Positions 26,653 to 38,800 of a stretch of 64,000 nt of DNA are shown piece by piece. Both the position numbers and the translations under genes were made by a program. Origin of the DNA: Albidovulum sediminis (lineage in GTDB: Bacteria > Pseudomonadota > Alphaproteobacteria > Rhodobacterales > Rhodobacteraceae); assembly GCF_025380365.1 (NCBI RefSeq), contig NZ_JAOCQF010000002.1, positions 80,846-144,845 of the forward strand, written 5' to 3'. The notes beneath the pieces were generated by a model that had not been told where the DNA came from, did no database searches, and was given only the letters and a program-made list of their open reading frames with translations. The first letter of the stretch is position 1. Every line of letters starts with the position of its first letter.

Positions 26653-27729
26653 ATGGCCGATTTCGACGCCCAGATCCGCGAAAGCCAGAAGCAGGTCCAG
26701 GATGCGCAGGCCCGGATCGCGGAGTTGACGACACGGATCGACAGCGCGCGGGCACGGCTGAAGACGGGCGACGACATCTCGATCGACATCGAGAATGCGA
26801 CGCTTGACGACGTGCACAAGCATGCCGAGATCATGAACGCCAACATCGCCGAACTGATCATGGGACTTGACGATGTGACGGCCGGATTTTCCCGCGATTT
26901 CGACGAGATGCGCAACAAGACGGGCTGGGAAAGCTTCGTCGGCATGTTCTCCAAGGGCAAGTCCGAGGCGATGCGGCAGGAGCGGCTGCGCGGCGCTTCG
27001 ATCGACGACAAGCTGCAGGACCTGATCGCCAAGTCCGACACGATCGTGCGGTTGCTTGAGGGGCAGCTGGCGGTCCTCAACGACCACAAGGGCCGGGTCG
27101 AGACGAACCTCACGGAGACGCTTTCGGACCGCGAGGTCACCGTGGCCGACCTGGAGCGGCTGCGCGCCGACATCCTGGCGATGGACCCGAAGATCATCGA
27201 GATCGAGAACCGGATCGCGGTCGAGCAGGACGCGGCGACGCGCACGAGGCTGGAAAGCGAGCTTGCCGAACTGAATACCCGCTACAACGCGATGGTGCAG
27301 GACGAGCAGGTAAAGCTCGCGAAGTCGCAGACGCTGGAACGCTATATCGAGAAGGGCAAGACCTGGGTCGACAGCCTGCAGAACCAGGCGGCGACGCAGA
27401 TGGTGCTGATCAACAAGCTGCAGACCGACACCCGCCAGCGGGTCGTCCTATACGACGCGCTGACCAAGAGCCTCAAGACCGCGCAGCAGCAGGACGTGGC
27501 CCACCGCATCAACGAGATCGGGGTGAAGACCGACCAGGAGGCGCAGGCGGCCATGGCCGGGATCGGATCGGCCACCAACCAGCGCATGGCCGAGATGATG
27601 GAGGCGCACGAGGACCAGATGGTCTTTGCCCGAAAGGTGCTGGCCGAGAAGGCGAAAGCCGACGAACGTTTTGCACGGCGGTTCCAGGCCATTGTCGAGA
27701 AGCACGACAAGAACCTTTATGGTGGGTAA
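26653..27729 (+). CDS. Long coiled-coil protein, first gene of the AAA+ cassette
   Basis: 358 residues, almost all helical and highly charged, with no signal peptide or membrane helix. Heptad-like stretches cover about 1-45 (QIRESQKQVQDAQARIAELT), 110-250 (LADLERL-type and RTRLESELAELNTRYNAMVQ) and 255-300 (YIEKGKTWVDSLQNQAATQM). The overall pattern recalls TelA-type helical proteins, but I see no diagnostic motif and do not assign it. Gene 2 starts immediately after its stop codon, and five more genes follow on the same strand, so it probably works with the AAA+ protein as scaffold or partner. Confidence 0.7.
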   Translation: MADFDAQIRESQKQVQDAQARIAELTTRIDSARARLKTGDDISIDIENATLDDVHKHAEIMNANIAELIMGLDDVTAGFSRDFDEMRNKTGWESFVGMFSKGKSEAMRQERLRGASIDDKLQDLIAKSDTIVRLLEGQLAVLNDHKGRVETNLTETLSDREVTVADLERLRADILAMDPKIIEIENRIAVEQDAATRTRLESELAELNTRYNAMVQDEQVKLAKSQTLERYIEKGKTWVDSLQNQAATQMVLINKLQTDTRQRVVLYDALTKSLKTAQQQDVAHRINEIGVKTDQEAQAAMAGIGSATNQRMAEMMEAHEDQMVFARKVLAEKAKADERFARRFQAIVEKHDKNLYGG

Positions 27730-28857
27730 GTGCCCGACCTTGACCTGACCACGGACCACAAGGCGCTCGACGACGATCTGGCCGCGCGACGCTACTTCGC
27801 GAAGTTCGAGCGCATCACCGGCCTGCTGGCCGGTGTCGCGGAGGCGATGGAGAAAGACCGTGCGTTGTCGGCGCTGGAAAGCGATGCGACCCAGGCGCAT
27901 GTCCGGGCGATCGCGGCGACGTTCCGGGCGCTCAGCCTGAAGTACCTCGTGTCGGGCCGGATCGAGGGGATCGGCCAGCGGCACCTGACGATCGACCTGC
28001 ATGAAAGCGGCTTCCCGATCTTTCAGGAGATCGTGACCATGGCCAATGACGCGGCGCAGGCGGCCAAGCACTTGGCGGGCATGCCCGATGCGGCGCGCCT
28101 GAAGGACGAGATGGTGCGCCAGATCGTGGGCGAGCGGGTGGTGCCGACGCGGCTGCAATACGCGATGTCGCAGCGGCTTTACTACGAGGCGCTGGTGCGG
28201 GGCGGGCTTTTCTTCGCGCAGATGCATCCGGAGGCGCAGTTCATCGCCGAGGCGCCGGGCGGGCGGCGGCGGTTCCTGATTCATTGGGGTGTCTACGACA
28301 GCCAGTTGAACGTGCCCGTCCTCTACCTGCTCGACGCCGAGGATTCGGGCAGGAAGGCGCTGCCGCTCGACGAGGGGCGCTGGCCCGAGGTGCAGGCACA
28401 CCTGCTGGCGCAGTCCGTCGGCGGGCTCAAGCTCCTGACGATTGCTAAGGGGTTCGACGCGGATTTCGCGGACCTGCACCCCAAACGGCTGCGCCGGATC
28501 CATCTTGGGCCGATGTATTCCTCGGCCTTCACCTTGCAGACCGGCCCGATCCGCGAGGTGCTGGAGGAGGCGCGGTCGCCCACGGGCGAGGACTGGGCGC
28601 TGGCCTGGACCGTCGAGGAACTGGAAAGCGAGCGGGTCGAGGTCGAGAAGGGCTGGTTCTCGTCGAGCGAGCGGCAGATCTTCCGCCTCGACCCCTTGGC
28701 CGGGCTTGGTCCCGATACGGGCGCCACGCGGATCACCCGGTCGATGATCCTGCCGCAGCGGCCGTTCCAGGTTCTGGCCGAGAAGGATCCCGAGGGATTC
28801 CGCGCGGTCCGCAAGTTCGTCGTCGGCAGGGAAGGCCGGGTGCTGGTCTATGGCTGA
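27730..28857 (+). CDS. Cytoplasmic protein of unknown function, second gene of the AAA+ cassette
   Basis: 375 residues, soluble, no signal peptide. It starts at a GTG directly after the upstream TAA, with GGTGGG as ribosome site. Visible elements: a helical N-terminal third (FAKFERITGLLAGVAEAMEK), a central segment with YEALVRGGLFFAQMHPEAQF and RRFLIHWGVYDSQLNVPVLY, and a C-terminal part with AWTVEELESERVEVEKGWFS. No catalytic motif or known family is recognised. It is separated from the ATPase gene by 77 bases that hold repeat copy C. Confidence 0.65.
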   Translation: MPDLDLTTDHKALDDDLAARRYFAKFERITGLLAGVAEAMEKDRALSALESDATQAHVRAIAATFRALSLKYLVSGRIEGIGQRHLTIDLHESGFPIFQEIVTMANDAAQAAKHLAGMPDAARLKDEMVRQIVGERVVPTRLQYAMSQRLYYEALVRGGLFFAQMHPEAQFIAEAPGGRRRFLIHWGVYDSQLNVPVLYLLDAEDSGRKALPLDEGRWPEVQAHLLAQSVGGLKLLTIAKGFDADFADLHPKRLRRIHLGPMYSSAFTLQTGPIREVLEEARSPTGEDWALAWTVEELESERVEVEKGWFSSSERQIFRLDPLAGLGPDTGATRITRSMILPQRPFQVLAEKDPEGFRAVRKFVVGREGRVLVYG

Positions 28858-28863
28858 AGCGTG

Positions 28864-28918
28864 CCGGGGGGCTTTCTGCCCCCCGGACCCCCCGAGGATA
28901 CTTGGGAAAAGAAGAAAG
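28864..28918 (+). repeat. Intergenic hairpin repeat, copy C
   Basis: Stem CCGGGGGGC / GCCCCCCGG with loop TTTCT (28864-28886), then ACCCCCCGAGGATACTTGGG and AAAAGAAGAAAG. It lies inside the AAA+ cassette, between genes 2 and 3; the ribosome site of gene 3 (GAGGG) follows a few bases later. Confidence 0.85.
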
Positions 28919-28934
28919 GGTTCGAGGGTTATCG

Positions 28935-30875
28935 ATGACGGCGCCGCTGAACGAGATGGAACTGAAGGAAGCCGAGATCCGGGCGCATTATGCGTCTGCG
29001 ACCGAGATGCTGATGGGCATAGACCACGCGCCGCGCATCGGCACGCCCCGGCTTTCGCTCCCCGCCGCGGAGAAGTCGCCCGAGGTCGCCTCCATGCAGC
29101 GCCGCTTCCGTTCCACCACACCGGGGCTGGTGACGCGGTCGACGGCGCGGACCGAAGGGATTCGGCTGCTGGACCGGATCGCGGATACCGACGGAGACGA
29201 TCCGCTGACCTCGGCCACGCAGGCGGCGGTGGCGCACGGGCTGCGGCGGGCGCTGGCCATCGCGCTGGCGGTCGGCGAGCATTTCGCCGGCCAGACCGCG
29301 CTGGTCGAGTTGAAGAAGGCCAACCTCGAGAACCGCTTGCCGCGGGAACGCGCGACCGAGTTTTCCGAACTGCTCTCGGCCGAGGCGCTGGCCGTGCTCT
29401 ACACCTTCGGCAATGCGCTCGCCTATCTCCTGGCTGCGCAGGCGAGCGAGCAGGCGGTGGAGGTGGGTGCGGTCGAGGAGGTGCTGACCGACAACGCGCC
29501 GCTTGCCCTCCACGGCGCGCTCTGGGAACTGGACCAGAAGATCGGGCTGCACGCAACGACCGAGGCGCTTCTGGTCGCCACGGTGCTGGGTTTTGCCGAG
29601 CAGCTGATGGCGAAGGTGCGCGCCCGGGCGGAGGGCGCGCCGCGGCTGGCCACCTTCACCGGCGCCAACTATCGCGTCAAGGCCGACGATTTCCCGATCT
29701 CGGGGTTTGAGCCGGCCCGCAAGGCGCGCGGGTCGACGCTTGTGATGACCTTCAGAAAACCGAACGAGGTCGTCGGCAACCACATCGCCAAGTATCAGGC
29801 GATGCGGCTCGCGAAGATGCTGATGGCCTACGACTTCGAGAAGCGGCTGAACCCCTTCGCCGAGATGGGCGGCTTCATCTTCACCTTCATGGGCGACGGC
29901 AAGCCGGGGACCGGCAAGACGACGCTGATCCAGATGATGGCAGGGCTTCTGAACGACTACTGCCAGGTGGCGAAGTATCCGTTCCGCTACCAGAACCTGT
30001 CGATCGACAATGTGGATTCGTATCAGGGCAAGTCGGGGCAGAACGCGAAGGCTTTCATCACCAACGTGATGGACCCCGCGGTCATCGGATTCGGCACCAT
30101 TGACGACATCGACCAGGTGGCGGGCAAGCGCGGCGACCGCCAGTCGAGCGCGGGCCAGCAGGAGATCACGGCGGTGCTGATGGAGGCCTTTGCAGGCGCC
30201 AATACGGTCGTGCGGGGCAACTGCACCTTCGGCATGTTCTCCAACTACCCCGAGAACGTGGACGACGCGCTGCGGCAGCGGGCCGGGGCGCGGTTTCTGG
30301 TCGACGGGCCGCAGACGCGGGAGGATTACATCGACATCCTGGCGCTGCTCCTGGGCAAGAACCACGCGATCCCGCTGGGGAACCACGAGCTTTACGCCGC
30401 GCAGGAGATCAAGCGGGCGGTGGCGGAGAGCTTCGAGAAACATGCGCGCCCGGCCGAGGACGGGCTGGTGCAGGTGTTCGAGGCGGTCCGGGCGCGGATC
30501 GGCGAACTGGACACGATCGCCAAGCTGGGCGCCTACCTCAAGGCGATCCAGGAGGCGGACGAGCGTTTCACCGGCCGCGCGATCAAGAACATCACCGACG
30601 CGGTGAAGGTCCGCGCGATGGACTTCGAACTGCCCGACGAATGGATGGAGCAGCCGGAGCTGTTCCTGTTCAAGGGCTATGACGAGAAGCGCGCGATGAT
30701 CACCGAACTGCGCCGGCCGATCACCGTCGAGATGGTGGTGCAGGAGATCAACCGCTACGCCGACAGCGAGTTCCGCTATGCCGACAAGTCTGACGAGGTG
30801 GCCATCGAGGGGGCCGTCAGGGACATGCGGCGGATGGAGGAGGCCAAGCGGCGGTATCTGGAGGGGAAGGGGTGA
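28935..30875 (+). CDS. AAA+ family ATPase of an uncharacterised cassette
   Basis: 646 residues. The N-terminal 300 are helical without recognised domains. The AAA+ core follows: Walker A MGDGKPGTGKTTL near 319-330, Walker B with sensor region FGTIDDIDQVAGKRGDRQSS near 385-400, and a likely arginine finger in ALRQRAGARFLVDGP near 446. A helical C-terminal lid region runs to the end. The ATP-binding core looks like a MoxR/dynein-type remodelling ATPase that removes or reshapes a partner; partners are presumably encoded alongside. GAGGG lies six bases before the ATG at 28935. Its stop overlaps the next start (TGATG). Confidence 0.8.
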   Translation: MTAPLNEMELKEAEIRAHYASATEMLMGIDHAPRIGTPRLSLPAAEKSPEVASMQRRFRSTTPGLVTRSTARTEGIRLLDRIADTDGDDPLTSATQAAVAHGLRRALAIALAVGEHFAGQTALVELKKANLENRLPRERATEFSELLSAEALAVLYTFGNALAYLLAAQASEQAVEVGAVEEVLTDNAPLALHGALWELDQKIGLHATTEALLVATVLGFAEQLMAKVRARAEGAPRLATFTGANYRVKADDFPISGFEPARKARGSTLVMTFRKPNEVVGNHIAKYQAMRLAKMLMAYDFEKRLNPFAEMGGFIFTFMGDGKPGTGKTTLIQMMAGLLNDYCQVAKYPFRYQNLSIDNVDSYQGKSGQNAKAFITNVMDPAVIGFGTIDDIDQVAGKRGDRQSSAGQQEITAVLMEAFAGANTVVRGNCTFGMFSNYPENVDDALRQRAGARFLVDGPQTREDYIDILALLLGKNHAIPLGNHELYAAQEIKRAVAESFEKHARPAEDGLVQVFEAVRARIGELDTIAKLGAYLKAIQEADERFTGRAIKNITDAVKVRAMDFELPDEWMEQPELFLFKGYDEKRAMITELRRPITVEMVVQEINRYADSEFRYADKSDEVAIEGAVRDMRRMEEAKRRYLEGKG

Positions 30876-31492
30876 TGGGCCCGGAGTCTTGGAGTGCGCT
30901 GGCGAACTGGGTGATGGCTGGCGCAGCGGTCTTGGCGGCGTGCGCCGCACGGTCAGGTTTGAACTCGTGGAAGAACCAAAACATTTGGACTGCTGACGCC
31001 GAGTTAGCTCGTCGTATCTTGATCGCGCTGTATCGGTTTCGTGACTCACTCTATGCAGTAAGACATCCTGCTATGTTTGCTGGTGAAATGCGCTTGGATG
31101 CCGAACAGGAATCAAAGCTTTCGGAAGTGGAGCAGCGTCAGGAAAGTGTGAGAAGTGCCTATTCAAGGCGGTGGTCGCGCCATCAGGAGCAAGCAATCGA
31201 GCTATCATCCCTGATGATCGAAGCGGATGCGGTGTGGGGTGAAGAACTTTCCAAAAAAGTATCTGAACTGAGGAAGCTTGAGCGCGAACTCTGGGCCTAC
31301 ATCAATCTTTACCTCGATGCGCACTACAGCAGAGACACCGAGCTGGCTCGCGAGTATCGCAAGATCCTCAAAGGGGAGCGGAATATCCTCTACGACATGT
31401 TGAAAGAGGACGACGTGTTTCGGATGGATTTCGTGAAGGCGCTAGCGCCAGTGGAGCGCTACCTGCGAGGCAAGTTGGGGCGAGGCAGATGA
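30875..31492 (+). CDS. Low-GC membrane-anchored helical protein inserted in the cassette
   Basis: 205 residues. One N-terminal membrane segment (about 13-28, WVMAGAAVLAACAARSGL), followed by charged helices (LARRILIALYRFRDSLYAVR, QESKLSEVEQRQESVRSAYS, KKVSELRKLERELWAYINLY). From about 30955 to 31480 the GC content is near 50 percent (29 of 60 in 31021-31080) against about two-thirds on both sides, and codon use shifts accordingly. It overlaps the ATPase stop by one base and the next start by four (ATGA). Small proteins of this shape are common in accessory DNA (inference). Function unknown. Confidence 0.75.
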   Translation: MGPESWSALANWVMAGAAVLAACAARSGLNSWKNQNIWTADAELARRILIALYRFRDSLYAVRHPAMFAGEMRLDAEQESKLSEVEQRQESVRSAYSRRWSRHQEQAIELSSLMIEADAVWGEELSKKVSELRKLERELWAYINLYLDAHYSRDTELAREYRKILKGERNILYDMLKEDDVFRMDFVKALAPVERYLRGKLGRGR

Positions 31493-32835
31493 ACCGCCTC
31501 ATCACCCGCGGCCTGATGTTCGGCAACCTGATCCCGGTGGACAGCCCCGCCCTTGTCGAACGCTACAACCGGGCGCTGAAGGCGCTGACGGGGAAGACCA
31601 CCGCGCTGGCCGACTTCCACATCGACCTGTCGGGGTATTCGCCGGAAATCGGCGACGAGCTGGGCGATGACCTCTACCTCAACCGGAACGGCTGCAACCG
31701 GCAGTTCATCCTGCTGACCACCGACCAGAAGACCGCGCCGCTCCTGAACGCGAAGTTCTCCACCTCGCGCGGGATCCTCACCCGCTTCATCGAGGAGAAC
31801 GAGGCGGAGCTGTTCACGCTGACCGCGCGGGACGCGGTGGCCGGCGAACTGGAAAACACCGTCTTCGACCTGACCGAGCCGAAGCGGCTGTTCGACATCC
31901 GCCGCGTCACGGTCGTCGCCGACACCACCGGCAACCATATCGCCGAGGGGCGCAGGCTTTCCCAGCTTGTCGAACGGTTCCGGACCGAGGAGGACGGCTG
32001 GTGGGACGATGTGCTGATCGCCGAGATGATCGGCCTGGCGGCAAAGACCGGCGATGTGACGAAGAATCCGGTGGCGCTGAAATCCACGGTGTTCGAGCAG
32101 GGCAATTTCTGGACTGCGCATTTCGGCGGCGTCTACCTGTTCCGGGACATGGAGCATCCAGCCGCCATCTCGGTCGGCCCGAAGGAGAAGCTGGGGCCCC
32201 TGCCGGTCAAGCATGTCTTCGACCTCGAGGATCGCAACCAGGTCGCCCAGTTCCTTGAGCTGAACAACCTGGTGGAGCCCATCGTGAACGCGCGCGGCCT
32301 CGACGCCGGGGCGGTGCTGCGCCAGAAGATGGACTTCATCCTGGTCGATGCCGCCGCCCGGCTTGGCCTCGACACCGGCGCGGGCACAAGGCGCGACCTG
32401 CGCCAGATTGCCGGCACGTTGGGCAACCGCCTGCCGGAGGAGTTCGAGGGGCTTGCCGCCCTTCTGCGCTGGGTCGAGACCGGGGGCCGGTGGCCGCGCA
32501 TCACCTCGGCCCATCCGGCGTATTTCTACACGCTCCGGTCCCGGCCCCATAAAGACCGCGACCTTGTGAACATGCTCCTGTCGGAGCTTTCGCCACTGGA
32601 CGTTCGCCAGCTTTTCATCTGCCACAAGGAACTGTTCTACGACATCTACCGGGCCTGGCCGGACGCGAAGAAGGACTTCGTCGCCGACTTCCTGGCGCGC
32701 GAATACCAGATGGACAAGAACGGCACCCGCCGCGCGCTGTTCGGGGACGAACCGCCGATGACGCCCGGACCCTGGGATCGTGATATCGTCGGGACCGTGG
32801 GCCCGTGGGGCGCGGTCAGGAGGGAGCGAAGATGA
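31489..32835 (+). CDS. DUF6638-like protein of the AAA+ cassette
   Basis: 448 residues, cytoplasmic. It starts MNRLITRGLMFGNLIPVDSP and contains IDLSGYSPEIGDELGDDLYL, CNRQFILLTTDQKTAPLLNA and KFSTSRGILTRFIEENEAEL, which I associate with DUF6638 proteins from alphaproteobacteria; the family has no known function. The C-terminal part has LFICHKELFYDIYRAWPDAK. No catalytic signature is visible. It overlaps the genes on both sides by four bases, implying coupled translation and a stoichiometric partner role with the ATPase. Confidence 0.7.
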   Translation: MNRLITRGLMFGNLIPVDSPALVERYNRALKALTGKTTALADFHIDLSGYSPEIGDELGDDLYLNRNGCNRQFILLTTDQKTAPLLNAKFSTSRGILTRFIEENEAELFTLTARDAVAGELENTVFDLTEPKRLFDIRRVTVVADTTGNHIAEGRRLSQLVERFRTEEDGWWDDVLIAEMIGLAAKTGDVTKNPVALKSTVFEQGNFWTAHFGGVYLFRDMEHPAAISVGPKEKLGPLPVKHVFDLEDRNQVAQFLELNNLVEPIVNARGLDAGAVLRQKMDFILVDAAARLGLDTGAGTRRDLRQIAGTLGNRLPEEFEGLAALLRWVETGGRWPRITSAHPAYFYTLRSRPHKDRDLVNMLLSELSPLDVRQLFICHKELFYDIYRAWPDAKKDFVADFLAREYQMDKNGTRRALFGDEPPMTPGPWDRDIVGTVGPWGAVRRERR

Positions 32836-33107
32836 TCGGTTTTGTCCGCCTCGCCATATTCGGCTTCATCGGCATGACCATCGCCTATCTCCTCCTGTCG
32901 GTCTATTCCCGCTCGGTCGAGCGCGAGCGGCTGGAGAAGGAATGGGACGGCGACCCCGCGAACGGGGATGACCCGGACGCGCGCGATGCCTATATCGAGA
33001 CGGGCCTGGCCGACTATCGCCGGAGCCTGCGCCGGAAGCTGATCTGGCTTGTCTACGTCATCCCGACCCTTGTCGTGCTGACGCTGCTTTACCTGAACGA
33101 TACGTGA
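32832..33107 (+). CDS. Small two-helix membrane protein of the AAA+ cassette
   Basis: 91 residues with two transmembrane helices, about 3-24 (GFVRLAIFGFIGMTIAYLLL) and 68-88 (KLIWLVYVIPTLVVLTLLYL). The acidic segment between them (EWDGDPANGDDPDARDAYIE) and the Arg/Lys-rich boundaries would place the loop in the cytoplasm if charge rules hold. The ATG at 32832 overlaps the previous stop (ATGA), and AGGAGG lies upstream. Likely part of a membrane complex with the next gene product. Confidence 0.75.
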   Translation: MIGFVRLAIFGFIGMTIAYLLLSVYSRSVERERLEKEWDGDPANGDDPDARDAYIETGLADYRRSLRRKLIWLVYVIPTLVVLTLLYLNDT

Positions 33108-33114
33108 GGCGACG

Positions 33115-33789
33115 ATGAGATACGCGAAATGGACCATCCTCACTTTGCTGGCGCTGACCGTCTTCGGCTTTTTCCACTACACGCTGCCACAGCACGACAT
33201 CGTGCGGATCGTGAACACGTATCAGGAACGGCAGGACCTGGACGACTGGACGCGGATCTTCTGGGCCAGCCCGGACGATCAGGCCACCGGCCTGATCAAT
33301 CGCGACGTGCAGTTCATCCAGGCTGTGGACGCGGACGGCAAGCCGCATGTCTACCGCAATGAGGATACGGGCTGGTCCTGGCCGCCCTATTTCAAGTTCG
33401 ACACCGCCAACCTCCAGACCCAGGCCGAGGATCTGAAATCCACCGCCGAGGCGCCGAAATGGGTTTCCGTCACCCACTACGGCTGGCGCATCGTCTATCT
33501 CTCGACCTTCCCGAACGCGATTTCTGTCAGGCCGGTGGAAGGGCCGGACGCCACCATCATTCCCTGGGTCAACATCGTTATCCTGACATTCCTTGCGGTT
33601 ATCCTGTTCATGCTCCGCCGCATGTGGCTCCAGTTCCGCGAACGCATGATCGACCCGATGGTCGAGGACGCGGAGGAAGCCTGGGACAGCGTCGATGCCC
33701 GCGCCGATCAGGCGGCGGCGAAGGCCCGCGGGCTCTGGGGCCGGTTCCGGGCTTGGCTCGACACCTGGAAGGGGAGACCGCGGCGTTAA
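33115..33789 (+). CDS. DUF1523-family membrane protein
   Basis: 224 residues. An N-terminal hydrophobic helix (WTILTLLALTVFGFFHYTLP), a periplasmic-type domain with TYQERQDLDDWTRIFWASPD and VSVTHYGWRIVYLSTFPNAI, a second helix near 150-170 (IPWVNIVILTFLAVILFMLR) and a cytoplasmic tail. The core matches what I know of DUF1523, widespread in Rhodobacterales and uncharacterised. It closes the seven-gene cassette, 7 bases after the preceding gene. The pattern suggests it senses or contacts the periplasm. Confidence 0.75.
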   Translation: MRYAKWTILTLLALTVFGFFHYTLPQHDIVRIVNTYQERQDLDDWTRIFWASPDDQATGLINRDVQFIQAVDADGKPHVYRNEDTGWSWPPYFKFDTANLQTQAEDLKSTAEAPKWVSVTHYGWRIVYLSTFPNAISVRPVEGPDATIIPWVNIVILTFLAVILFMLRRMWLQFRERMIDPMVEDAEEAWDSVDARADQAAAKARGLWGRFRAWLDTWKGRPRR

Positions 33790-34914: not shown

Positions 34915-37269
34915 ATGCCCAGCGTGACGGAAATTCTTGAGAGCATGGACTACGGACCGGCCCCGGAAGCCACGGGCGAGGTGACGAAGTGGCTATCCAC
35001 ACGCGGAAGCTTCGGCCACTTCATCGGCGGCCGCTTCACCGCGCCGGGGCAGACCTTCGATGTCAGGAACCCCGCCACCGGCGATCTGCTGGCGAAGGTG
35101 ACGCAAGGCACGGCCGCCGATGTCGCCGCCGCGGTCAAGGCTGCCCGTTCCGCCCTGTCCCGCTGGTCCAGGCTTTCGGGGCATGAGCGCGCGCGGCATC
35201 TCTATGCGCTGGCCCGCCACATCCAGAAGCGCGAGCGCTTCCTTGCGGTGCTGGAAACGCTCGACAACGGCAAGCCGATCCGCGAGACGCGCGACATCGA
35301 CGTGCCGCTGGCTGCGCGCCATTTCTACCACCACGCCGGCTGGGCCGAGGTGCTGGCAGACGAGTTTCCCGGCCGCGGCCCGGTGGGGGTCTGCGGGCAG
35401 ATCATCCCGTGGAACTTCCCGCTCCTGATGCTGGCCTGGAAGATCGCGCCCGCGCTGGCGGCGGGCAACACCGTCGTCCTGAAACCCGCCGAATACACCC
35501 CCCTGACCGCGCTCGCCTTCGCAGAGATTTGCGCCGAGGTCGGGCTGCCGAAAGGGGTCGTCAACATCGTCACCGGCGACGGAGCGACCGGGGCGGCGCT
35601 GGTCGCGGCCGAGGTTGACAAGATCGCCTTCACCGGCTCCACCGAGGTCGGGCGGGCGATCCGCAGGGCCACGGCGGGCACGGGCAGGAAGCTGACGCTG
35701 GAACTTGGCGGCAAGTCGCCCTTCGTCGTCTTCGCCGATGCCGATATCGACGCCGCGGTCGAGGGCGTGGTGGACGCGATCTGGTTCAACCAGGGCCAGG
35801 TCTGCTGCGCCGGGTCGCGCATCCTGGTGCAGGAGGGGATCGCGCGCGACTTCACCGAACGGCTGGCTGTGCGGATGGGCAAGCTGCGCGTGGGTGATCC
35901 GCTCGACAAGTCGACCGACATGGGCGCGATCGTCGACCCGGTCCAGCTTGCCCGCATCCGCGATCTGGTCGCGCAGGGCGAGGCGGAAGGCGCGGTGCTG
36001 CATCAGGCGCCCTGCCGGTTGCCGGACAGGGGCAGTTTCTATGCGCCGGGATTCCTGACCAACGTGGCGCCGGCCAACATCCTCTCCGAGGTCGAGATCT
36101 TCGGCCCGGTCGCCACGCTGACCACATTCCGCACCCCGGACGAGGCGGTGGAACTGGCCAACAACACCCGATACGGCCTTGCCGCCTCGATCTGGTCGGA
36201 GAACATCAACCTGGCTCTCGACGTGGCCTCGAAGGTCAAGGCGGGGGTGGTCTGGATCAACGCCACCAACGTCTTTGATGCGGGCGCCGGCTTCGGCGGC
36301 TACCGCGAAAGCGGCTTCGGCCGCGAGGGCGGGCGCGAGGGGATGGGCGAATACCTTACAGAGGTTCCGGTGAAGGCGAAGGCGGAACCGGCCCCGGTCG
36401 CCCCCGACGCGGCACCCGTGCCGGAGGCCCCGGCCGGGGCGGACCCGATCGACCGGACGGCAAAGCTCTACATCGGCGGCGCGCAGAAGCGCCCGGACGG
36501 CGGCCATTCCTACGCCGTGCGCGGCAAAGGCGGGGTCATCGGGCTTGCCGGACTTGGCAACCGCAAGGATATCCGCAACGCGGTCGAGGCCGCGCACAAG
36601 GCCTCCGGCTGGGGCAAGGCCACCGGCCACAACCGCGCGCAGGTGCTTTACTACCTGGCCGAAAACCTGTCCGCGCGGGACGCGGAATTCGCCCGGCGCC
36701 TTGCCTCCGCGCGGGTTCCGAAACCGCAGGAGGAGGTCGCGACGGCTATCCGCCGCGCCTTCTGGTATGCGGCACAGGCCGACAAGTTCGACGGCGCGGT
36801 GCATGCGACGAAGTCGGCCCATGTGACGCTCGCCATGCCCGAACCCTTCGGGGTTATGGGCCTGGCCTGCCCGACTGACGCGCCGCTTCTGGGGTTCCTC
36901 AGCCTCGTGCTTCCGGCCATCGCCATGGGCAACCGCGTGGTCGCGATCCCCTCGCAGAACATGCCGCTCGCCGCCACCGATCTTTACCAGGTGTTCGACA
37001 CCTCGGACTTGCCCGGCGGCGTCGTCAACATCGTGACCGGGCCGCGCGACGAGCTTGCAAAGACGCTCGCCGGCCACGACGACGTGGCGGCGATGTGGTA
37101 CTGCGGCAGCGCTGCCGGCGCGGCCATGGTCGAGGCGGAATGCGCGGGCAACCTCAAGGCGACCTGGATCGTCAGGAACCGCGACTGGCTTTCGGCCGAG
37201 GGGCAGGGGCGTGGTTTTCTGGATCACGCCACGCAGATCAAGAACATCTGGGTGCCCTACGGCGAATGA
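34915..37269 (+). CDS. Double-domain aldehyde dehydrogenase downstream of deoC
   Basis: 784 residues made of two aldehyde dehydrogenase-like halves. The first (about 30-500) is complete: IIPWNFPLLMLAWKIAPALA, FTGSTEVGRAIRR, Glu in LELGGKSPFVVFAD and Cys in NQGQVCCAGSR near 298. A Pro/Ala-rich linker (about 490-515) leads to the second half (520-784), which keeps the fold (RRAFWYAAQADKFDGAVHAT, GVMGLACPTDAPLLGFLSLV) but lacks the QxC catalytic motif. It likely oxidises acetaldehyde from DeoC. AGAGCGAG precedes the ATG at 34915. Confidence 0.88.
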   Translation: MPSVTEILESMDYGPAPEATGEVTKWLSTRGSFGHFIGGRFTAPGQTFDVRNPATGDLLAKVTQGTAADVAAAVKAARSALSRWSRLSGHERARHLYALARHIQKRERFLAVLETLDNGKPIRETRDIDVPLAARHFYHHAGWAEVLADEFPGRGPVGVCGQIIPWNFPLLMLAWKIAPALAAGNTVVLKPAEYTPLTALAFAEICAEVGLPKGVVNIVTGDGATGAALVAAEVDKIAFTGSTEVGRAIRRATAGTGRKLTLELGGKSPFVVFADADIDAAVEGVVDAIWFNQGQVCCAGSRILVQEGIARDFTERLAVRMGKLRVGDPLDKSTDMGAIVDPVQLARIRDLVAQGEAEGAVLHQAPCRLPDRGSFYAPGFLTNVAPANILSEVEIFGPVATLTTFRTPDEAVELANNTRYGLAASIWSENINLALDVASKVKAGVVWINATNVFDAGAGFGGYRESGFGREGGREGMGEYLTEVPVKAKAEPAPVAPDAAPVPEAPAGADPIDRTAKLYIGGAQKRPDGGHSYAVRGKGGVIGLAGLGNRKDIRNAVEAAHKASGWGKATGHNRAQVLYYLAENLSARDAEFARRLASARVPKPQEEVATAIRRAFWYAAQADKFDGAVHATKSAHVTLAMPEPFGVMGLACPTDAPLLGFLSLVLPAIAMGNRVVAIPSQNMPLAATDLYQVFDTSDLPGGVVNIVTGPRDELAKTLAGHDDVAAMWYCGSAAGAAMVEAECAGNLKATWIVRNRDWLSAEGQGRGFLDHATQIKNIWVPYGE

Positions 37270-37325
37270 GCGCCCGTTGCCTGCCGGTCCCGTTTCGGCC
37301 ACTCTCGCGCCGAATGGGGGTGCCG

Positions 37326-38705
37326 ATGCATCGCATGGCCGTCACGATCCTTTCCGCGCTGCTCCTGCCTGGGGCGGCTTTTGCCCACGCGACGCAGCGG
37401 GCGGTGCTGCACACGCTGCCAACAACGCCCTATCTTGTTGCCGCTGGTGCTGCGGTCGCGCTGTCCGCGCTGATCGTGACCTTCGCTGCCCGCGTGCCGG
37501 CGCCGCGGTCCGTCCGGCTGATCTCGCGCCCCGTGGTGCCGCGCGACCTTGGCAGCTGGTTTTCTGCGCTCCTTCTCGGCCTGCTGGTCTGCGTGGGCTT
37601 CTTCGGCAACCGCGACCCCTTTGGCAACCTGCTGACGCTCACCGTCTGGATCGTCCTTTGGGTCGCCCTCACGCTGGCGGTTGCGGTCTTCGGCAACCTC
37701 TGGCGCGGCCTCGATCCCTGGACGGGGCCGGTGCGCGCGGCGCGGCGCGCGCTGGGGCGCAGGGGAGGTATCGGCCTGTCGCGGCTTGGCCACTGGTCCG
37801 CGGTCGCGGGATACATGGGGTTCGCCTGGTTCGAGATCGTCTCGCTCGCCCCCGCAGATCCCGCCGTGCTGGCGCGCGCCGTCCTTCTCTACTGGGTCAC
37901 GATCTTCGTGCTTGCCGTGGCCGAGGGGGAGGACTGGCTGGAGAAGGGCGAGTTCCTGACGGTCTACTTCGGCTTCGTTGCGAAGATCGCGCCGCTCTGG
38001 GCCGAGCGTGACAACGGCCGGCTGACCTTTCGCCTCGGCTGGCCGGGCGCGCAGATCGTCGGCATGGCGCCATTGACCCTTTCGCAGGCCGCCTTTGTCA
38101 CCGCGGTCCTCGCCTCGGTCAGCTTCGACGGGCTGCATGAGACGTTCTGGTGGCTGGCGCTGATCGGGATCAACCCGCTCGACGTGCCGGGGCGGTCCGC
38201 GGTGATAGGGGTGAACACGCTGGGCCTTCTGGCCACCTGGGCGGTCATGTCGGGACTGATCGCCGCCGCGATCCGCGCGGAACTGGCGCTGTCCGGCCGG
38301 GTCGCGCTGTCCTTCGGCCGCGCGGCCGGGCCCACCGTGCTGTCCTTCCTGCCGATCGCCACGGGATACCACGTCGCGCATTACCTTGTCGCGTTGCTCT
38401 CATCCGGCCAGTATGTGCTGGTAGCCCTGAACGACCCTTTCCACCGCGACTGGGCGCTGCTCGGGTTGCCCGAGCACTGGGTCGGCTTCGGGTTCCTCGT
38501 GCGCGAGGACTCCGTCCGTCTGATCTGGCAGGCGCACTGGGCGATCATCCTGTCGGCGCATCTGCTGGCCGTGCTGCTGGCCGCCCACATCGCGCGCGCC
38601 GCCGGATTGCAGACGCGGCGCATCGCGCAGCTTCCTGTCGCCGCACTCATGGTGCTTTACACGGTGTTCGGCCTCTGGCTCCTGTCCACCCCGGCCGCGG
38701 GCTGA
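37326..38705 (+). CDS. Polytopic integral membrane protein of unknown function
   Basis: 459 residues with roughly ten to twelve hydrophobic helices and a cleavable-looking N-terminus (MAVTILSALLLPGAAFAHAT). Conserved-looking polar stretches: FFGNRDPFGNLLTLTVWIVL, GNLWRGLDPWTGPVRAARRA, VAEGEDWLEKGEFLTVYFGF, FDGLHETFWWLALIGINPLD and SFLPIATGYHVAHYLVALLS, with His in HVAHY and Asp/Glu in membrane-adjacent positions that could bind metal or haem. I do not recognise the family. The start is the ATG at 37326 after GGGGG; ATGs at 37314 and 37335 are alternatives. It lies between deoC-ALDH and the purine/ureide region. Confidence 0.75.
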   Translation: MHRMAVTILSALLLPGAAFAHATQRAVLHTLPTTPYLVAAGAAVALSALIVTFAARVPAPRSVRLISRPVVPRDLGSWFSALLLGLLVCVGFFGNRDPFGNLLTLTVWIVLWVALTLAVAVFGNLWRGLDPWTGPVRAARRALGRRGGIGLSRLGHWSAVAGYMGFAWFEIVSLAPADPAVLARAVLLYWVTIFVLAVAEGEDWLEKGEFLTVYFGFVAKIAPLWAERDNGRLTFRLGWPGAQIVGMAPLTLSQAAFVTAVLASVSFDGLHETFWWLALIGINPLDVPGRSAVIGVNTLGLLATWAVMSGLIAAAIRAELALSGRVALSFGRAAGPTVLSFLPIATGYHVAHYLVALLSSGQYVLVALNDPFHRDWALLGLPEHWVGFGFLVREDSVRLIWQAHWAIILSAHLLAVLLAAHIARAAGLQTRRIAQLPVAALMVLYTVFGLWLLSTPAAG

Positions 38706-38713
38706 AAAAACCC

Positions 38714-38741
38714 TTGGACTTTTCATTTGCATACGCACAAT
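38714..38741 (+). promoter_or_regulatory. Possible promoter of the LIV-type importer operon
   Basis: TTGGAC (38714-38719) and CACAAT (38736-38741), spaced 16 bases, in an AT-richer patch 60 bases before the binding-protein start. A fair match to a housekeeping-type promoter; not decisive. Confidence 0.3.
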
Positions 38742-38800
38742 CTGAACCGAAGGCGCGGGCGCGGAAAGCCGCGCGCCAGACCCAGCAGCGGAGATGACAC

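Follow-up and report, generated by a model that had tools for sequence, protein, structure and literature searches.

What does a tightly packed run of seven genes encode, and do all seven belong to one machine? The run lies at positions 26653..33789 of a 64,000-nucleotide stretch of the Albidovulum sediminis genome (Alphaproteobacteria, Rhodobacteraceae; contig NZ_JAOCQF010000002.1, positions 80,846 to 144,845), the whole of which is here called the window. An earlier note, made from the sequence alone, had described it as seven genes in one direction around an AAA+ ATPase. All seven open reading frames (ORFs) are present on the + strand, and the reality of this observation is confirmed. With high confidence, we describe the cassette as a conserved block with two junctions at which genes are exchanged, mainly the one between the ATPase and DUF6638 genes (slot A), the other being that between CC and SOL (slot B). 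The features are as follows.

26653..27729, + strand: CC, 358-amino-acid (aa) coiled-coil protein, core gene 1 (ORF call; homologue in 99 of 100 loci)
27729..27730, no strand: slot B, the CC–SOL junction, empty in the window (0 bp); relatives often have a small membrane protein here
27730..28857, + strand: SOL, 375-aa soluble protein, core gene 2
28935..30875, + strand: AAA+ ATPase, core gene 3 (Pfam AAA, 1.1e-12; alignment)
30872..31492, + strand: slot A filling, 206-aa protein, a passenger and not core (one likely N-terminal helix; GC content at third codon positions, GC3, 0.62)
31489..32835, + strand: DUF6638 protein, core gene 4
32832..33107, + strand: TM2, two-helix membrane protein of about 90 aa (ORF call; in 87 of 100 loci)
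33115..33789, + strand: DUF1523 membrane protein (Pfam, 9e-72; alignment); DUF2333 takes its place in other lineages

For the ATPase, a start at ATG 28935 (646 aa), which matches the relatives in alignment, is preferred over the longer alternative from TTG 28902, and leaves a 77-bp gap behind SOL. For TM2, ATG 32832 is preferred, giving a 4-bp overlap with DUF6638. The corrected junctions across the seven genes are 0, +77, −4, −4, −4 and +7 bp. Four of the six overlap or abut, as claimed earlier for most of them; the other two are the gap after SOL and the 7 bp before DUF1523. Pfam names three of the seven proteins (AAA domain, 1.1e-12; DUF6638, 6.3e-228; DUF1523, 9e-72), and no family scores above cut-off for the window's CC, SOL, slot A filling or TM2. 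The GC3 of the filling is 0.62, whereas that of the six other cassette genes is 0.83–0.90.

Gene order is conserved around the ATPase

In a phylum sample of 398 genomes, DUF6638 (at E ≤ 0.001) and the ATPase (at E ≤ 1e-25) were each found in 26, and the 26 are identical. One hundred loci were read: 20 of these 26, picked by DUF6638 (L027-L046), and 80 picked by the ATPase (L047-L126), which are the best 80 of 541 relatives and all come from Rhodobacteraceae, their kin or unclassified Alphaproteobacteria. The order CC-SOL-AAA-DUF6638-TM2-DUF1523 is complete in 86 of the 100 loci (85 plain and one with a second DUF1523). Because the same order recurs in so many loci, recurrence of the core set is far beyond chance. 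The fixed partner set with a membrane end that the earlier note had proposed for the ATPase is thus borne out, and its neighbours do not vary at random between genomes, the outcome that would have spoken against the proposal.

A further seven loci have the form CC-SOL-AAA-DUF6638-DUF2333, without TM2, and Sinorhizobium meliloti pSymB carries this form. TM2 is present in 87 of the 100 loci; it is missing from the seven DUF2333-type loci and from L038, the one locus where nothing else is missing, and five others end early or are without DUF6638. The only locus without a CC homologue, L112, sits at a contig end. CC-SOL-AAA stands alone in five loci. Three of these (L049, L072 and L111) are near contig ends; the other two, L051 and L083, are not, and neither has DUF6638 in the 9 kb covered. 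In L051, from Frigidibacter, a 533-aa apparently membrane protein (L051:7363-8964) lies between SOL and AAA, usually a tight junction.

In the window's genus, 21 of 22 genomes have DUF6638; in its family the count is 90 of 198, and in the class containing G050 it is one of 274. At the level of genera, the cassette is found in 89 of the 197 sampled in the family, nearly half. The nearest ATPase in the named genome collection, 92% identical, belongs to Defluviimonas sp. WL0002. Four Vibrio plasmids (0.9 Mb) have the ATPase at 41% identity, and the Vibrio CC is 34% identical to that of the window. The two Vibrio plasmid loci opened (L193:7473-13021 and L194:7473-13021) contain the four core genes, and TM2, DUF1523 and DUF2333 were not detected beside them (profiles were run on L193). 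Because of the DUF2333 forms and of this Vibrio core without detected membrane genes, we recognize CC, SOL, the AAA+ ATPase and DUF6638 as a stable four-gene unit, the membrane genes (TM2 and DUF1523, or DUF2333) being lineage-specific.

Several individual loci deserve mention. Directly behind the four core genes of both Vibrio loci there is a gene annotated as mfd. An IMG/VR contig of 35% GC, probably a bacterial contig inside a viral collection, has DUF2333 and the four core genes (L195:3736-11220). SOL and AAA are separated there by about 0.9 kb, and an SmpB-like ORF was read by eye at 2904. The draft genome G414 has two DUF6638 copies (L174 and L190), one with a filled slot and the other with an empty one; its 4% contamination may be the explanation. 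In G756, a draft of 76% completeness, the cassette is apparently broken: L203 comprises a partial CC, a slot-type gene, a DUF559-like gene (by eye), a partial DUF6638 and TM2.

Genes are exchanged between the ATPase and DUF6638

As first called, the interval between the ATPase and DUF6638 genes is at least 250 bp in 78 of the 95 loci that have both; after correction of starts and addition of the window, which gives the 96 slot A instances used below, the count is 82 of 96. Intervals of this size are absent from the DUF6638–TM2 and TM2–DUF1523 junctions (0/87 each), and are found in 6 of 100 SOL–AAA and 31 of 99 CC–SOL junctions. Slot A contains an ORF of at least 75 aa in 82 of 96 instances. 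An overlap of exactly 4 bp joins the first such ORF to the ATPase stop in 32 of the 82, and the last one to the DUF6638 start in 40. Together the 104 slot A ORFs form 46 clusters, unrelated to one another; since ORFs were called mechanically and some small ones are probably not genes, sharing between loci is lowered. A slot cluster is common to 6 of 24 locus pairs whose ATPases are 95–100% identical, to 27 of 49 at 90–95% and to 24 of 31 at 85–90%. The high sharing at middle identities is due largely to one small three-helix protein that is stable in Loktanella/Yoonia-type loci.

Ten locus pairs that differ in filling were chosen, and their slot flanks compared in ungapped blocks. On the DUF6638 side, all ten are 88–100% alike over the first 60 bp of the gene. 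On the ATPase side, six are 87–93% alike over the final 60 bp of the gene and drop to 23–47%, the background level, in the first 30 bp past its stop. Exchange of slot genes is gene-precise, running from the stop codon of the ATPase to the start codon of DUF6638. The low-GC fourth gene of the window, taken earlier for a member of the set, is instead one of dozens of alternative fillings, and the idea that the products are made in fixed ratios cannot hold generally over the AAA–DUF6638 and CC–SOL junctions, which vary in length and content. Overall, the earlier interpretation is partly supported.

Base composition differs with the size of the filling. Among fillings of at least 130 aa, GC3 is below that of the locus's own ATPase in 48 of 52, with a median difference of −0.29; among smaller ones it is below in 31 of 51 and the median is −0.03, a core-like value. 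In 69 of 96 loci, the final 24 nt of the ATPase gene include a Shine–Dalgarno (SD)-like 5-mer, compared with one of 100 CC ends and one of 101 SOL ends. The 5-mer lies within a purine-rich stretch coding for the ATPase C-terminus, commonly RYLEGKG. Because the end of the DUF6638 gene, likewise ahead of a coupled gene, has an SD-like 5-mer in 66 of 96 loci, the site marks coupling rather than the slot alone.

Slot B is the second exchangeable-gene junction of the block. An ORF of at least 60 aa is present there in 43 loci, and these ORFs fall into 37 clusters; two helices are predicted in 23 of the 43.

Identity of the slot A fillings

Within the window's genus, 21 loci from 20 genomes contain about ten unrelated larger fillings: the window's kind three times, a DUF559 type four times and eight others once each, with two slots empty and four holding small or doubtful ORFs. 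Fillings of at least L173, L179, L180, L183 and L185 are 100% identical to those of named loci, probably from the same species, so that the genus and named sets are not independent. Relatives of the window's filling, 23–33% identical, were found in five other genomes of the 295 searched in the family, and all five are in slot A. Among the named loci, that of Ruegeria faecimaris has this filling at 59% identity, and its ATPase and the window's are 72% identical.

Forty larger fillings were scanned against Pfam. Five are of DUF559 endonuclease type, all in DUF2333-type loci, and single fillings match Mrr_cat/Mrr_N, PIN_10, DUF433, AbiJ_NTD4, DUF3825, DUF2971, a histidine-kinase-type ATPase and, weakly, DUF4145. 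PIN_10 and DUF433 adjoin in L084 and look like a toxin–antitoxin pair. By eye, we read the fillings of L181, L176 and L178 as GIY-YIG-like, nucleotide-binding-like and HEPN-like respectively. The statement in the earlier note that no nuclease or toxin motif is present therefore stands for the window, but not for those relatives that have DUF559, Mrr or PIN-type genes in the same slot. On S. meliloti pSymB, an IS4-like element shares the slot with a gene annotated 'endonuclease domain-containing protein'. The commonest filling is the small three-helix protein, a cluster of 22 (22 of 96 loci). The DUF559-type fillings of L171, L182, L174 and L189 start with, or come after, a recurring stretch (translated ...GEGMGVG... 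or similar), perhaps a repeat that moves along with the DUF559 gene.

Families and folds of the core proteins

The ATPase belongs to the Pfam AAA family (PF00004; 49 bits against a cut-off of 21.2). Its Walker A motif, GDGxPGTGKT, is conserved in 18 aligned ATPases and lies at G320-T329, with the arginine finger likely at R447/R449 (646-aa numbering), in keeping with the placements given earlier. Walker B reads D-D in all 18 aligned sequences; D-E is usual at this motif. About 260 residues precede the AAA domain. The best sequence matches in PDB are to Vps4 (E = 1.4e-4) and an i-AAA protease (1.6e-4).

The DUF6638 protein is a clear member of its family (PF20343; 757.3 bits against a gathering cut-off of 27), and we found no match of it to a solved fold. 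SOL is predicted to have a helical N-terminal part and a C-terminal part with a tunnelling-fold-like order of elements: residues ∼176–338 show the strand-strand-helix-helix-strand-strand order of urate oxidase, 6-pyruvoyl tetrahydropterin synthase and dihydroneopterin aldolase. Of the 50 VIA rows listed for SOL, 43 read as the tunnelling-fold superfamily. We take this as suggesting a weak resemblance. For CC, TelA (PF05816) was considered and rejected: hhalign gave probabilities of 0.2–0.3% and E values of 0.33 and 0.23 on shallow alignments, and a Pfam listing for 30 CC members, with 23 families, does not include TelA.

Downstream of the cassette, at 37250-38749 of the window, there is a strong negative AT skew (to −0.46).

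A possible effector platform or tolerated insertion site

We tentatively favour the view that the cassette encodes a membrane-linked AAA+ stress or defence platform whose effectors are the slot genes. At the inner membrane, to which TM2/DUF1523 or DUF2333 would provide the link, the AAA+ ring would build or dismantle a complex made of CC, SOL and DUF6638, and this remodelling would be triggered by stress or infection. The slot gene would be a co-expressed effector (nuclease-like, a small membrane protein or an orphan), which the machine might hold back, place or release. A constant core would do the sensing and remodelling, and its effectors would be swapped in the manner of other modular defence systems. 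The most ambitious form of this proposal is a new modular platform for immunity or stress: a membrane-linked AAA+ machine, perhaps with new folds, serving dozens of unrelated effectors through gene-precise exchange, with a ribosome binding site ending the ATPase gene and a second slot for small membrane proteins. That combination we regard as rather unlikely.

Several results weigh against slot genes being effectors of the core. A filled slot is not required: the interval is at most 130 bp, with no ORF of 75 aa, in 9 of 96 loci, in five more a longer interval has no such ORF, and the core of both opened Vibrio loci is without a filling. For four of the ten pairs whose flanks were compared, the ATPase side is dissimilar in ungapped blocks, presumably reflecting an insertion or deletion near the gene end. 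One filling has six matches, its own genome included, of which three are in the slot, one is in a broken cassette and two are elsewhere in the genome. Most fillings have no Pfam family and are orphans. The Mrr and PIN/DUF433 fillings would be self-sufficient, needing no partner. PADLOC did not tell 40 fillings from 40 flanking controls by how many weak matches each set gave (18 versus 10 families), although strength differs, the best fillings reaching 9.2e-33 (Mrr) and 1.2e-23 (DUF2971) against 7.1e-7 in the controls. The small three-helix filling, being the commonest and belonging to a size class with core-like GC3, may be a native subunit.

Nearly as likely as the platform is a harbour, in which the core has a job of its own, as a housekeeping or stress machine, and slot A is merely a tolerated spot where transient genes settle and are swapped by homologous recombination, its flanks being conserved and the ATPase gene ending in a ribosome binding site. 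The conserved flanks of the compared pairs, the Vibrio core without filling, the filling with two of six matches elsewhere in the genome and the endonuclease-annotated gene with its IS4-like element on pSymB all fit this explanation, and it accounts for the empty slots and the self-sufficient fillings just as well as effectors do. It fits less well with the use of mainly two junctions (intervals of at least 250 bp in 78/95 at AAA–DUF6638 and 31/99 at CC–SOL, against 0/87, 0/87 and 6/100), or with the relatives of the window's filling, found solely in the slot among the 295 family genomes. Improbable, in our judgement, is an envelope machine whose inner-membrane complex, in an arms race against phage or toxins for instance, would include the small two- and three-helix proteins from slots A and B as fast-diverging subunits, with nuclease-like fillings as occasional intruders: three segments are predicted in 28 of 57 slot A ORFs of 75–139 aa and two in 23 of 43 slot B ORFs, the GC3 of small fillings is near that of the core (median −0.03, lower in 31/51) and membrane modules end the operon, but slot A ORFs of 75–139 aa are missing from 49 of 96 loci, the window included, and a protein of at least 140 aa occupies 47 of the 82 filled slots.

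Comparison with known systems

Since the slot gene can be taken out independently of the core, and the core independently of it, whether the core controls the fillings is directly testable. The cassette also lets one test how a conserved ATPase might work with unrelated partners. The slot itself is a collection of small orphan genes exchanged at one address, and hence a way to seek new effectors and toxins. The machine is present in nearly half of the sampled genera of the family (89/197), and we found nothing on the cassette in the literature searched for DUF6638, DUF1523 and DUF2333, as judged by titles and abstract openings.

The ATPase shares its AAA domain with ATPases of the Vps4/katanin/fidgetin type, and differs from them in its N-terminal region of ∼260 residues, its D-D Walker B and its partners, DUF6638 and SOL. 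For a Vps4-type system of the endosomal sorting complex required for transport (ESCRT), which would have an ESCRT-III substrate protein among its partners, the sequence matches to Vps4 are weak, and CC has no convincing Pfam family. PADLOC models of two defence ATPases, TRIP13 and IetA, show weak similarity in the ATPase domain (1.7e-5 and 0.0022 respectively). A TRIP13-containing cyclic oligonucleotide-based antiphage signalling system (CBASS) was rejected, as Pfam, NCBIfam and PADLOC revealed no HORMA or nucleotidyltransferase/CD-NTase family in the seven proteins. IetS, the partner in IetAS, is a subtilisin-type protease; IetAS was rejected in turn, the same three collections revealing no protease among the seven and the IetA model matching at just 0.0022.

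These collections likewise revealed no hsdR, hsdM or hsdS subunit among the seven proteins, and a type I restriction–modification operon with an embedded gene was rejected as an identity for the cassette. The cassette core consists of an AAA+ ATPase, DUF6638 and proteins without known family, with no hsd-type gene. The pattern of embedded extra genes is known, and the machine that hosts it here is undescribed in the literature searched. PrrC is a latent nuclease sequestered by its type I restriction host complex in EcoprrI (PMC3874165), and rlo and mlo ORFs are embedded in the hsd loci of Campylobacter jejuni (PMC5183652). Type I restriction–modification operons are the closest precedent: like the cassette, they are conserved operons with extra genes at internal junctions (PMC3874165, PMC5183652).

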